56,714 bases of DNA from an uncultured Opitutales bacterium (lineage in GTDB: Bacteria; Verrucomicrobiota; Verrucomicrobiia; Opitutales; Intestinicryptomonadaceae), in NCBI GenBank assembly GCA_944389885.1, contig CALXNZ010000016.1, positions 1-56,714 on the forward strand, in the 5' to 3' direction. The stretch's first letter is position 1. Each line of letters starts with the position of its first letter. The notes beneath the pieces are model-generated. The model saw nothing but the letters and a program-made list of their open reading frames with translations, was not told the DNA's origin and made no database searches. This document shows, piece by piece, positions 49,408-54,895 of this stretch. Position numbers and translations under genes: made by a program.

Positions 49408-51120
49408 ATGTCGAAAATCCGCACAGCTTTGATATTGGGCGCAGGGTTTGGAACGCGCCTCCGCCCGCTCACCTCGATTTTGCCGAAGCCGCTGTTGGAG
49501 GTTCGCGGGAGGCCGCTGATTCTTTCGATTTTCGATTCCCTCGTCGATGCCGGAATAAAAAGGCTTATAGTCAACACGCACCACCTCGCAGGAAGATACC
49601 TTGAATTCTTTGAAAAGTTCCGCGACGGCGACGGCCGCATAATATACCGCGGCGTTCCAGTATCGATTTCCCACGAGCCTGAGATTCTCGACACCGGGGG
49701 CGCCATAAAAAACATACTTCCCATCATTGGCGATGAAGATTCAATCCTCGTTTACAACGGGGACATAATTTCCCAAACGGACATACCCGCCCTGCTCCGC
49801 TCCGCGGAATCTTCAACAGCCTCCGCGATACTCTGCCTGCGCGAAAGCGGCGCCATAAAGAACGTATCCGTAGAAGGGACTAAGGTGCGCGATATGCGTT
49901 TTATCCTGCGGGCCAGTTTCGAGAAATCCGCCCAATTTACGGGAATATTTGCCGCAAAGAAAAGTTTTCTGGAAGCCGTTAAATCTCGCAGCGGGAAAGT
50001 ATTTTCCACAATAGACGTCTTAATAGACTTACTTAAGAAAAACCCCGATTCGATAGACGCCCATTTCGACGGCTCCCCATGGGAGGACATTGGGACGCTT
50101 GACTCTTACAAAGAATTAAACCGCGGCTTTGACACAAATATACAACTCATTGACGCGCTTGCAAGAGACGCCGATATGCGCATAGACAACCCCATTCCCA
50201 TAAAGAAGGGGGCGTCGGACCGCTTTTTTTATACGGCGAAGGCAAAAGGCGGAGAAGACGTCGTAGCATGCGTATATTCTCTACAAAAGGCCGAAAATTC
50301 GCTTTATGTTCCCCTGGCAAATTTTCTTATTTCAGAGGGATTCCCCGTTCCAAAGATTTACGCCCACAACGCAGACGCCGGCATAATTTTAATGCAGGGG
50401 CTCGGCTCCAAAGACCTGCTTTCAATAAGCTCCAAAGAACGCCTTGTCTATTATAAGAAAGCCGCCAAATGCATAAGGCTTTTGCACGGACAAATTACGG
50501 ACTCTTTTAAATCCCTGAAAAACCCGGTTAGACTTTCGGAACCGTTCGGGACAAATCTCTACGACTGGGAACACCGCTACTTTTTCGAGGAATGCGTCCG
50601 CGATAAGTTCTCGCTAAAAGTCTCACCGCCCGCTGACGAGCTAAAATTCATTAAAGACACCCTTAGCGCCACCCCGCAATGCCTCCTCCACCGCGACTTG
50701 CAATCGCAAAATATAATGGTGGTGGGAAACGACGTATATTTTATAGATTTCCAGGGAATGCGCTTCGGGTGCCCGTTCTATGATTTGGCGTCTCTGCTTT
50801 TTGACCCCTACGCCCGATTGTCTTCCACGGAAAGAAAATCGGTATTGGACGCATATTTCGGCGATTCCACCGCCTCTGAAAAACAAATGGAGGAAAACAC
50901 ATTTCTCCTCAACATTGGGGCGGCCCAAAGGCTTATGCAGGCTCTCGGAGCCTACGGATTTCTCTCTCTAAAAAAGGGCAAGAAAGAATATTCACAATAT
51001 TTTTATCCGGCCCTAATGTCCCTATCGGAATGCGCCCATTCCGCGGGGCTCAGATGCATCGCAAACACGGCAGACGCCTGCATCGAAATATTATCGCGTG
51101 GCGAAAGCAGACAAATTTAG
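49408..51120 (+). CDS. Bifunctional MurU-AmgK fusion: sugar-1-phosphate nucleotidyltransferase plus amino-sugar kinase
   Basis: This 570-residue protein joins two enzymes. Residues 1 to about 245 form a MurU-like nucleotidyltransferase: ALILGAGFGTRLRPLTSILPKPLLEV, INTHHL-type VNTHHLAGRY, EPEILDTGGAIKNILP, VYNGDI and PWEDIGTLDSYKEL. Residues about 265-570 form an AmgK-like aminoglycoside-phosphotransferase-fold kinase: LLHRDLQSQNIMV (catalytic HxD...N) and YFIDFQGMRFGCPFYDLASLLFDPY. In Pseudomonas, AmgK phosphorylates MurNAc or GlcNAc at C1 and MurU makes UDP-MurNAc, a cell-wall recycling shortcut. A LicCA-type choline kinase/cytidylyltransferase fusion is an alternative but the motifs fit less well. 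Its stop overlaps the converging gene by 4 nt. Confidence 0.82.
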   Translation: MSKIRTALILGAGFGTRLRPLTSILPKPLLEVRGRPLILSIFDSLVDAGIKRLIVNTHHLAGRYLEFFEKFRDGDGRIIYRGVPVSISHEPEILDTGGAIKNILPIIGDEDSILVYNGDIISQTDIPALLRSAESSTASAILCLRESGAIKNVSVEGTKVRDMRFILRASFEKSAQFTGIFAAKKSFLEAVKSRSGKVFSTIDVLIDLLKKNPDSIDAHFDGSPWEDIGTLDSYKELNRGFDTNIQLIDALARDADMRIDNPIPIKKGASDRFFYTAKAKGGEDVVACVYSLQKAENSLYVPLANFLISEGFPVPKIYAHNADAGIILMQGLGSKDLLSISSKERLVYYKKAAKCIRLLHGQITDSFKSLKNPVRLSEPFGTNLYDWEHRYFFEECVRDKFSLKVSPPADELKFIKDTLSATPQCLLHRDLQSQNIMVVGNDVYFIDFQGMRFGCPFYDLASLLFDPYARLSSTERKSVLDAYFGDSTASEKQMEENTFLLNIGAAQRLMQALGAYGFLSLKKGKKEYSQYFYPALMSLSECAHSAGLRCIANTADACIEILSRGESRQI

Positions 51121-51710: not shown

Positions 51711-52682
51711 TCACTGGGGTTGATAAATATCGTGTATCCGAATAATGCCCAAACATTTATTATCGCCGTCAACTACGGGCAAAACTGACAATCTCGACTT
51801 GCGGGCTTCCATAAGGTGCACGGCGTCCCCCAGGGAAGCTTCCGGAGAAATACACACGGGAGATTTTGTCATTATATCCGAACATTTTAGGGAATCCAAG
51901 TTCACCACTGTCTGCAACATGCGCCTTATGTCGCCGTCTGTCACTATCCCCCTCAATCTACCGGCTTCGTCCACAACACATGCGGCCCCGAGAGGATATT
52001 TTGTCATTTCAATTACAAGTTCCCTTACGGAAACGCCGGCTGGGACAAGCGCGCAATGTTGGGCTTTGTGGAAGACGTCTCCCACCGTTAAGGTCAGATT
52101 TCTGCCGAGTTGGCCGGCCGGATGAAAACGGGCAAAATCCTGCAAAGAAAAGCCCCTTGCCTTCATCAGGGCGCATGCGAGAGCGTCGCCTATGGCCAAA
52201 GTGAGAGTTGTGGAAGTGGTTGGCACTATCCCAAGCGGATCGGCCTCGCCGCCGGACGACGCGTCCAAAACTATATCGGCGTCCCGCGCCATAGGGGAAT
52301 CCGTTTTCCCCACGAGAGCAATAATGGTGGAGTTAAACTTGCGCAGCGTGGGAATTAGGCGCATACATTCAACAGTAGAACCGCTGTTGGAAATCATAAG
52401 GGTTGGATCTCCCGGCTCATAGACGCCAAGATCGCCGTGCACGGCGTCGCAAGCGTGAAGGAATAAAGCGGGAGTACCGGTACTCGAAAGCGTTGCGGCT
52501 ATTTTTTGCCCCACAAGTCCAGATTTTCCCACCCCGCTCACCATTAGCTTGCCCTTATGGGACAATATAACTCTTAAAGCCTGACAGAAATTTTCGTCGA
52601 GGCGCGAAACCGCGCCCGATATGGCGGCGGCTTCCGATTGCAATACCGCCTTCGCAGTGGAGAGTATTTCGGAATCGTTCAT
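51711..52682 (-). CDS. kdsD: Arabinose-5-phosphate isomerase KdsD (KpsF/GutQ)
   Basis: This 323-residue protein has a SIS domain (GKLMVSGVGKSGLVGQKIAATLSSTGTPALFLHACDAVHGDLG, ISNSGSTVEC) and two CBS domains (VRELVIEMTKYPLGAACVVDEAGRLRGIVTDGDIRRML and IMTKSPVCISPEASLGDAVHLM). It converts ribulose 5-phosphate to arabinose 5-phosphate, the precursor of Kdo in LPS. The start overlaps the kdsB stop (ATGA), which links two steps of the Kdo pathway. Confidence 0.94.
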   Translation of the reverse strand: MNDSEILSTAKAVLQSEAAAISGAVSRLDENFCQALRVILSHKGKLMVSGVGKSGLVGQKIAATLSSTGTPALFLHACDAVHGDLGVYEPGDPTLMISNSGSTVECMRLIPTLRKFNSTIIALVGKTDSPMARDADIVLDASSGGEADPLGIVPTTSTTLTLAIGDALACALMKARGFSLQDFARFHPAGQLGRNLTLTVGDVFHKAQHCALVPAGVSVRELVIEMTKYPLGAACVVDEAGRLRGIVTDGDIRRMLQTVVNLDSLKCSDIMTKSPVCISPEASLGDAVHLMEARKSRLSVLPVVDGDNKCLGIIRIHDIYQPQ

Positions 52683-53755
52683 GCCAGTGAATTCTTTTTG
52701 ATATAGTCTTCAGCCGCCTCGAGGTCCGCAGGAGTGTCTATGCCCACGGGCTCATACTCGGTTTCAACAATGTCGAAAGGGTATCCGGCCGCGATAAAGC
52801 GCAGTTGCTCAAGCATTTCGCAGGCTTCCATATCCGGCTGCGGCAAAGATGAGTAGCGAACCAAAGACTTTGCGGAATAGCCGTAAATCCCTATGTGGCG
52901 CCAATAAGAAGTCTTTGAAAGCCAATCCGAACAATTTTCCACTCCCCTCACATAAGGGAGGGGAGTCCTACTAAAATATACGGCCCTGCCGATATTGTCG
53001 CGCAACACTTTCACCACATTGGGATTTTTGAGAGAATCCGCGCTTGTAATACGGCTTGCCGCAGTCACCAGCTGCGAATTTGAATCTACCCCTGCGGATA
53101 TTATAGAATCAATCAGCCGCGGAGAAATAAAAGGTTCATCGCCTTGAACGTTTACTATGAATTCGGCGCCTATGGAGCCGAGGGCCTCTATAATGCGCTC
53201 AGTTCCGGATTTGCATTCCGGAGATGTCATTATGCATGGGGCGGATATGCCTTCGGCGAATCTTTGGATTTCAGGGCTGTCGGTAAGAATGAGGACTTTT
53301 TCGGCTCTTTCGCTTTTGAGACAGCTTTCATAAACGCGCAAGAGAACTTCTTTTCCTCCTAATTTTGCGAGGGGTTTTCCTGGGAACCTGCTTGATCCCA
53401 TGCGGGCGGGTATGGCTATTGCCGCTCCCAAAAGCATAGCTCCCTTTATCATAAAGCCGTCGAGTGACTTTTTCTCAACGTCCTCCCAGAATTCCTTATT
53501 TTCGGAATCCACAGGCATATCTTCGGCTATATAATTGTTCCAGAAGGCGAAAGCGGCAATTATAAAGCAGATAAATCCTATTATTCTAAACAGCAGGGCA
53601 TATTGAAATTTAGAGAACCCAGCAAATTTTAACTTTGAATTGTTGTAGCGCTCCTCGTAAGAGGCCCCGCTCCTAAAAAGGAATAGAACAGCCAGGAACA
53701 GAGGTACTATCACCACCGCTACTTCTAAAATTGTTATGGCAATTTTTACAAACAT
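52679..53755 (-). CDS. kdsB: CMP-Kdo synthetase KdsB with an N-terminal two-helix membrane extension
   Basis: Residues about 107-358 are KdsB: AIPARMGSSRFPGKPLAKLGGKEVL, CKSGTERIIEALGSI, VNVQGDEPFISPRLID, AVYFSRTPLPYVRG, RHIGIYGYSAKSLVRY and EPVGIDTPADLEAAE. It activates Kdo with CTP. Residues 1-106 are an unbroken in-frame extension with helices at about 5-27 and 54-74 and an acidic linker. Known KdsB proteins are soluble and about 250 residues. An internal ATG at codon 107 (53437) is preceded by AAAGGGAG but with only 2 nt spacing, so internal initiation is possible. It starts 18 bp after the DegT gene. Confidence 0.88.
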   Translation of the reverse strand: MFVKIAITILEVAVVIVPLFLAVLFLFRSGASYEERYNNSKLKFAGFSKFQYALLFRIIGFICFIIAAFAFWNNYIAEDMPVDSENKEFWEDVEKKSLDGFMIKGAMLLGAAIAIPARMGSSRFPGKPLAKLGGKEVLLRVYESCLKSERAEKVLILTDSPEIQRFAEGISAPCIMTSPECKSGTERIIEALGSIGAEFIVNVQGDEPFISPRLIDSIISAGVDSNSQLVTAASRITSADSLKNPNVVKVLRDNIGRAVYFSRTPLPYVRGVENCSDWLSKTSYWRHIGIYGYSAKSLVRYSSLPQPDMEACEMLEQLRFIAAGYPFDIVETEYEPVGIDTPADLEAAEDYIKKNSLA

Positions 53756-53773
53756 ATCGAACTCCTGATACTT

Positions 53774-54895
53774 TTAAGCGAACTCATTGACGCGCTTTGC
53801 CACGTAATCCAACTGTTCCCGTGTCAACTCCGGATATATAGGCAACGCCAAAGTGTGTTCCGCCGCATATTCGCTATTCGGGAAATCCCCACGGCGATAT
53901 CCCAAAGGCGCGAAACACTCTTGCAAGTGGAGCGGGAGAGGATAATATATTTCGCAGCCTATTCCGTTATTGCGCAAATGCTCCAAAAGCCCGTCGCGAT
54001 TCGGAACGCTAATTATGTATTGGTTGTAAATGGAGCGATTGGCCGGATCAATGTAAGGAATTTTTATATTTGGATTATCCGCGAATGCGGCGTTGTAAAA
54101 AGCCGCGTTATTGGAGCGCATATGGGCCCATTCATCGACATGCGGCAACTTTACCCTCAATCCTGCGGCTTGGAGGGCGTCGAGTCTGAAATTTCCCCCG
54201 ACAAATTTGTGGTAATATTTTGGGGCCATGCCGTGATTGCGCATTTGGCGCAATTTTTCCGCAAGAGCGGAATCGTTAGTGATTACCATGCCGCCGTCGC
54301 CAAGCCCCCCCAAATTCTTTGACGGAAAGAAGCTCAAGCAAGCGCAATTTCCAAATCCCCCAACTTTTACGCCGTTTCTCGAGGCTCCTATAGCCTGGGC
54401 GCCGTCCTCTATTACAGCCAAATTGTACTTCTTCGCGATATCGAGTATGGGCCCCATATCGGCGCATTGACCATATAGATGGACTGGCATAATAGCTTTT
54501 GTGCGCTCGGTAATTTTAGATTCTATTTGGGAAGAATCTATATTATAAGTCTTAGGATCTATATCCACAAATACGGGCTTTGCTCCTGCTCTCCAGACGC
54601 AACCGGCAGTCGCAAAAAACGTATAGGAAGGAATAATCACTTCAGCCGACGGCCCCTCGTCCAATGGAGACCTATTAACGCCCAGAGCCATTAGGGACGC
54701 CAACAGTGCGTCCGTTCCGCTGGAAACCCCGACAGCGTCCGACACGCCGGAATAATCCGCGATTTCCCTTTCAAGGGCATCAACATCTTCTCCCCCGATG
54801 AAGTGCTGGCTCTCGAGGATTTTATCCAAGGCCTTGTGCATTTGTTCGCGCAGGGGAGCGTATTGTTCTTTTAAATCTAAAAGAGGGATTTTCAT
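53774..54895 (-). CDS. DegT/DnrJ/EryC1/StrS family sugar aminotransferase
   Basis: This 373-residue PLP enzyme opens with IPLLDLKEQYAPLREQM and has SSGTDALLASLMALGV, EVIIPSYTFFATAGCVWRAGAKPVFVDID, MPVHLYGQCADM, VIEDGAQAIGA and the PLP-binding lysine in SFFPSKNLGGLGDGG. The FFPSKNLG form is that of WbpE/VioA-type enzymes that aminate nucleotide-linked keto-sugars. The amino sugar made is unknown. It begins the unit DegT, kdsB, kdsD, PmtA-like, which suggests surface polysaccharide or LPS sugars. A role as ArnB for the ArnA/ArnD pair is possible but unsupported by position. Confidence 0.9.
   Translation of the reverse strand: MKIPLLDLKEQYAPLREQMHKALDKILESQHFIGGEDVDALEREIADYSGVSDAVGVSSGTDALLASLMALGVNRSPLDEGPSAEVIIPSYTFFATAGCVWRAGAKPVFVDIDPKTYNIDSSQIESKITERTKAIMPVHLYGQCADMGPILDIAKKYNLAVIEDGAQAIGASRNGVKVGGFGNCACLSFFPSKNLGGLGDGGMVITNDSALAEKLRQMRNHGMAPKYYHKFVGGNFRLDALQAAGLRVKLPHVDEWAHMRSNNAAFYNAAFADNPNIKIPYIDPANRSIYNQYIISVPNRDGLLEHLRNNGIGCEIYYPLPLHLQECFAPLGYRRGDFPNSEYAAEHTLALPIYPELTREQLDYVAKRVNEFA

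Follow-up and report, generated by a model that had tools for sequence, protein, structure and literature searches.

We found that the KdsB (predicted CMP-Kdo synthase) encoded in a 56,714-nucleotide stretch of DNA from an uncultured Opitutales bacterium (contig CALXNZ010000016.1, positions 1 to 56,714; hereafter the window) carries a predicted two-helix membrane domain fused to its N terminus, and that this domain is in frame with KdsB in all 17 readable kdsB genes of the window's family, a group of gut Opitutales sampled across three genera. Judged from profile comparisons, the fused domain is homologous to stand-alone two-helix membrane proteins of the same order. On balance, we favor the view that it serves as a membrane tether that holds KdsB close to the membrane-bound Kdo transferase WaaA.

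The fusion gene and its parts, together with its immediate neighbors, are arranged as follows:

51711..52682, minus strand: kdsD, arabinose-5-phosphate isomerase with SIS and CBS domains (Pfam; sequence)
52679..53755, minus strand: the fusion gene, 358 aa, a single-ATG open frame kept in 17/17 readable relatives
52682..53425, minus strand: complete KdsB domain, residues 111-358 (TIGR00466, NF003952; PDB 1h7e_A)
53426..53527, minus strand: acidic linker, residues 77-110, with a helix at 84-98 that carries the conserved F89-W90 and, after it, a stretch of low confidence at 100-108 (AlphaFold2; charge pattern; alignment)
53435..53437, minus strand: ATG of Met107, a possible internal start
53528..53611, minus strand: helix 2, residues 49-76, with a hydrophobic core at 58-74, conserved R57 and invariant G60 (AlphaFold2; alignment)
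53612..53677, minus strand: K/R-rich inter-helix loop, residues 27-48, with short helices at 30-38 and 41-44 (AlphaFold2; alignment; charge count)
53678..53752, minus strand: hydrophobic helix 1, residues 2-26; P18 is invariant and E/Q11 conserved (AlphaFold2; alignment)
53762..53766, minus strand: AGGAG ribosome-binding site, 6 nt 5′ of the ATG at 53755 (sequence)
53774..54895, minus strand: DegT/DnrJ/EryC1 aminotransferase gene (Pfam)

The ATG at 53755 is the sole start codon of the open stretch before the hydrophobic domain, and at the GC content of the window 106 open codons would arise by chance with a probability of ~0.001; recurrence of the fusion across the family is much stronger evidence than this estimate. 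The stop codon of the fusion gene overlaps the kdsD start codon (ATGA), and the aminotransferase gene runs in the same direction 18 nt upstream. Elsewhere in the window (49408-51120, plus strand), another gene encodes a 570-aa protein in which a nucleotidyltransferase (PF00483) is joined to an aminoglycoside-phosphotransferase-like kinase (PF01636); it resembles MurU and AmgK in one chain, for the recycling of cell-wall sugars.

The KdsB portion scored above the curated thresholds of both family models (176.7 bits against a cut-off of 155.2 for TIGR00466, and 275.9 against 193 for NF003952), with matches covering residues 112-355. In the AlphaFold2 model of the whole fusion (mean pLDDT 92.2), the KdsB fold begins at residue ~111 and superimposes on 1h7e_A with a TMt of 0.94 and an rmsd of 1.4. 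The catalytic motifs PARxxSxRxPGKPL, NVQGDEP and GIDTP are kept, with nearly all of their positions either invariant or 90% conserved among 36 KdsBs. By these sequence and model criteria, residues 111-358 are an intact KdsB, predicted to act as a CMP-Kdo synthase.

The N-terminal domain was modeled with a pLDDT of 87-97, and both helices (residues 2-26 and 49-76) with high confidence. Seven of its alignment columns are invariant (P18, R28, Y33, S40, G46, G60 and F89), and these conserved positions include motifs in the loop and after the second helix. Neither Pfam nor NCBIfam contained a reliable family match to the domain, and a PDB fold search with a 98-aa model of it returned no match (best E 5.2). 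In two relatives, L016 (298-1485) and L017 (1078-2259), the linker between the anchor and KdsB is extended by ~40 residues and has a high content of charged residues. An earlier, sequence-only reading of the window had proposed that 106 residues precede a complete KdsB, in frame and without a stop, which the 358-aa open frame, the family scores and the fold match bear out; its division of those residues into two hydrophobic helices and a linker also held, although it left out the conserved loop and post-helix motifs.

That reading had further suggested inspecting the N termini of related KdsBs, and when we did so we found the same membrane domain in every readable gene. We searched 19 genomes of the family, of which 17 had a readable kdsB; one of the remaining two is a draft assembly that is 83% complete, and the other, G010, yielded zero candidates in every search, including those for KdsB and WaaA, and was treated as unreadable rather than as a case of loss. 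The carriers include an isolate genome, Marseille-Q1082. In the closest pair of sequences, dN/dS was ~0.09 for the N-terminal domain and 0.04 for the KdsB part, values that rest on few estimates, dS being saturated in most other pairs; they indicate that the N-terminal domain is under purifying selection. The fused KdsBs formed one clade with a support of 1.0, which points to a single origin of the fusion, and the other families of the order had a plain kdsB.

Very long kdsB open frames elsewhere in the phylum were considered as candidates for further fusions and rejected. Of 18 that we fetched, 13 were readable by the KdsB motif (five were not resolved), and none of the 13 extensions had a convincing membrane helix. 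In most of the 13, an ATG sits directly at the KdsB motif (L156 and L162 have only GTG or TTG starts nearby), and the extensions of all 13 resemble read-through of an overlapping gene. L051 and L110 also gave apparent N-terminal matches, which were set aside because they were not in one frame with KdsB. In one further genome, kdsB seemed to be split between two frames (G080:C5:192556-193258, with matches in frames of 154 and 147 aa).

A profile of the N-terminal domain gave weak matches to stand-alone genes in other families of the order, which encode proteins of 76-117 aa with two hydrophobic helices. In the reverse direction, a profile built from seven stand-alone members, with no fused sequence among them, retrieved the fused N-terminal domain in 11 genomes of the window's family with E values down to 1e-11, as well as many further stand-alone genes. 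Alignment of the N-terminal domain to the stand-alone groups by hhalign gave P values of 2.5e-9 (family f21), 1.6e-6 (f11) and 2.2e-4 (f20), compared with 0.05-0.5 for reversed controls. The domain also shares with these proteins the predicted architecture of two membrane helices and a charged loop; they differ from it in being separate proteins, of 76-100 aa in alignments A4 and A6, with no KdsB attached. The earlier reading had recognized a two-helix anchor, and the membrane domain is indeed conserved; what it missed is that the anchor appears to be a recruited stand-alone protein, one that neighbors kdsB in f20. No Pfam model matched the two-helix family (the N-terminal domain and two stand-alone proteins were tested), and among the 188 genomes of the class that we searched, no member turned up outside the order. 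Each genome of the window's family has one copy, the fused one only. Second, weaker members in G037, G055, G038 and G070 point to paralogues within the stand-alone family.

The stand-alone gene of f20 is the divergent neighbor of kdsB in 9/9 genomes where it was found, at a distance of ~150-160 bp in five (G083, G096, G106, G116 and G128) and 0.8-1.25 kb in four (G037, G055, G069 and G147, the last judged by coordinates alone). G106 also shares with the window the placement of kdsD after kdsB. The stand-alone gene lies away from kdsB in f11 and f21, and the KdsBs of these two families fall on a different branch of the tree, with moderate support. No convincing two-helix gene was found beside kdsB in f7, f10, f13, f16, f19, f23 and others. 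In four f20 loci (L186, L187, L188 and L189), the stand-alone gene runs convergently toward an AMP-forming ligase-like gene that by eye resembles MenE, overlapping or abutting it. That the two genes are fused in one family and adjacent in another is a Rosetta-stone type link, which suggests that the two-helix protein either works together with KdsB or was encoded near it in an ancestor; shared ancestral proximity could yield both arrangements without any common function. A tentative extension of the first possibility is that in Opitutales the two-helix proteins serve CMP-Kdo synthase as a dedicated partner at the membrane, docking KdsB in a Kdo-transfer assembly (metabolon) with WaaA.

In the tether model that we favor, a two-helix protein that remains separate in other Opitutales would have been fused once to the N terminus of KdsB, in an ancestor of the window's gut family. 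The fused domain would insert in the inner membrane, and the acidic linker would hold an active, probably dimeric KdsB at the cytoplasmic face, such that CMP-Kdo would be made where membrane-bound WaaA uses it, with a presumed benefit to Kdo transfer. CMP-Kdo is lost to hydrolysis on a scale of minutes to an hour. Its half-life is ~34 min at 25°C (PMC3149649), and because the compound is so short-lived, proximity of KdsB to WaaA could pay. In the same genome, WaaA has retained a hydrophobic anchor at its own N terminus, which makes co-location of the two enzymes at the membrane plausible; its gene is unlinked to kdsB, on another contig.

The alternative that fares best against the tether model, which we nevertheless consider unlikely, is that the two-helix protein has an unrelated role in the membrane and that its gene, a neighbor of kdsB, lost its stop codon and joined kdsB with no benefit to Kdo transfer. 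Ancestral proximity alone could explain both the f20 adjacency and the f1 fusion, the lack of linkage in f11 and f21 means that the function of the stand-alone protein need not concern Kdo, and the Pfam, NCBIfam and PDB searches gave no hint of what that function might be. However, the fusion has persisted in three genera and none of the 17 genes has split again, and even a fusion of this kind would leave KdsB bound to the membrane as a consequence.

Far less probable is that the long frame is not the functional form and that the working KdsB is a soluble product initiated near Met107, a possibility that the earlier reading had raised with its proposal of internal initiation at 53437. An ATG does encode residue 107 in the window, and most relatives have one at the aligned position, but Met is missing there in 5/17 (L008, L010, L012, L016 and L017). 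Among these, L010 lacks ATG, GTG and TTG codons from residue 79 up to an ATG inside the catalytic IPARM motif, and L017 offers only ATG 127 and TTG 137, which lie 15-25 residues before that motif. Because five relatives lack the Met and two of them lack a start adjoining the KdsB domain, internal initiation near residue 107 cannot be general. In the window itself, a GGGAG sequence lies 2 nt from the ATG at 53437, which is too near, and no Shine-Dalgarno sequence stands at normal spacing; the purifying selection on the N-terminal domain, in frame with KdsB, also argues against this form of expression, which is thereby largely excluded. Met107 is probably what remains, at the fusion joint, of the start codon of the ancestral kdsB.

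The tether model places KdsB in the cytosol, and topology is its weak point, for the charge distribution argues against the simplest arrangement of this kind. In 17/17 fused proteins, K and R outnumber D and E in the inter-helix loop and the tail after helix 2 is acidic, a pattern from which the positive-inside rule predicts a cytosolic loop with KdsB outside. CTP and Mg are required by KdsB, and CTP is absent outside. We looked for a second KdsB in the genome and found none. Because this sole KdsB needs CTP, either the hairpin is monotopic or re-entrant or the positive-inside rule is broken. Helix 1 has an invariant proline at its midpoint and positive residues at both ends, which suggests the former, and a monotopic or re-entrant hairpin is the geometry most consistent with the data, although speculative. 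The opposite arrangement, in which KdsB would lie at the outer face of the inner membrane or be freed by proteolysis in the acidic linker after insertion, seems to us very improbable: the charge pattern and the low-confidence stretch of linker at residues 100-108 are in its favor, but the enzyme depends on CTP and Mg, supplies WaaA on the cytosolic face and is the only KdsB found in the genome. In addition, the loop of the stand-alone f20 proteins is neutral and several members end in a basic C terminus, features compatible with both ends being inside. Topology may therefore differ within the two-helix family.

The earlier reading had also named a sequencing or assembly error that joined two genes as a way in which it could be wrong; this explanation is refuted, because 17 genomes that were assembled separately all have the fusion, at 50-66% identity.

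The lineage with the fusion and the f20 lineage with divergent neighbors together offer a direct test of spatially organized delivery of labile sugar nucleotides, and they give a first clue to the function of the undescribed two-helix membrane protein family.

Compared with known systems, the fusion shares its whole catalytic domain with KdsB and CMP-Kdo synthetases of solved structure (E. coli KpsU, 1h7e; E. coli KdsB, 3k8d; Aquifex, 2y6p), and the Mg-binding aspartates of the Aquifex enzyme, D95 and D219, correspond to D206 (NVQGDEP) and D340 (GIDTPADL) in the window. The PDB chains matched by profile align with the KdsB part only (from query residue 99 on) and have no membrane domain, whereas the fusion has 110 residues preceding its KdsB domain. 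Bacterial KdsB is usually regarded as a free cytosolic enzyme. WaaA/KdtA of the same genome resembles the fused KdsB in being a Kdo-pathway enzyme with a hydrophobic N-terminal anchor; it differs in having one helix rather than two and in being the transferase rather than the activating enzyme, and we claim no homology between the anchors. The plant CMP-Kdo synthetase CKS (At1g53000) has an N-terminal transmembrane segment. It too is a KdsB-type enzyme, and it is located in a membrane organelle, the mitochondria of plant cells (PMC12168206, PMC4404806); it is not known to share the two-helix domain. The earlier reading knew of no such anchored KdsB; for bacteria we found no membrane-anchored KdsB in the open-access literature either, but the mitochondrial plant enzyme calls for a qualification. 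A membrane-associated CMP-Kdo synthase is thus not without precedent, the precedent coming from plants, and it is the two-helix family providing the anchor in Opitutales that is undescribed.
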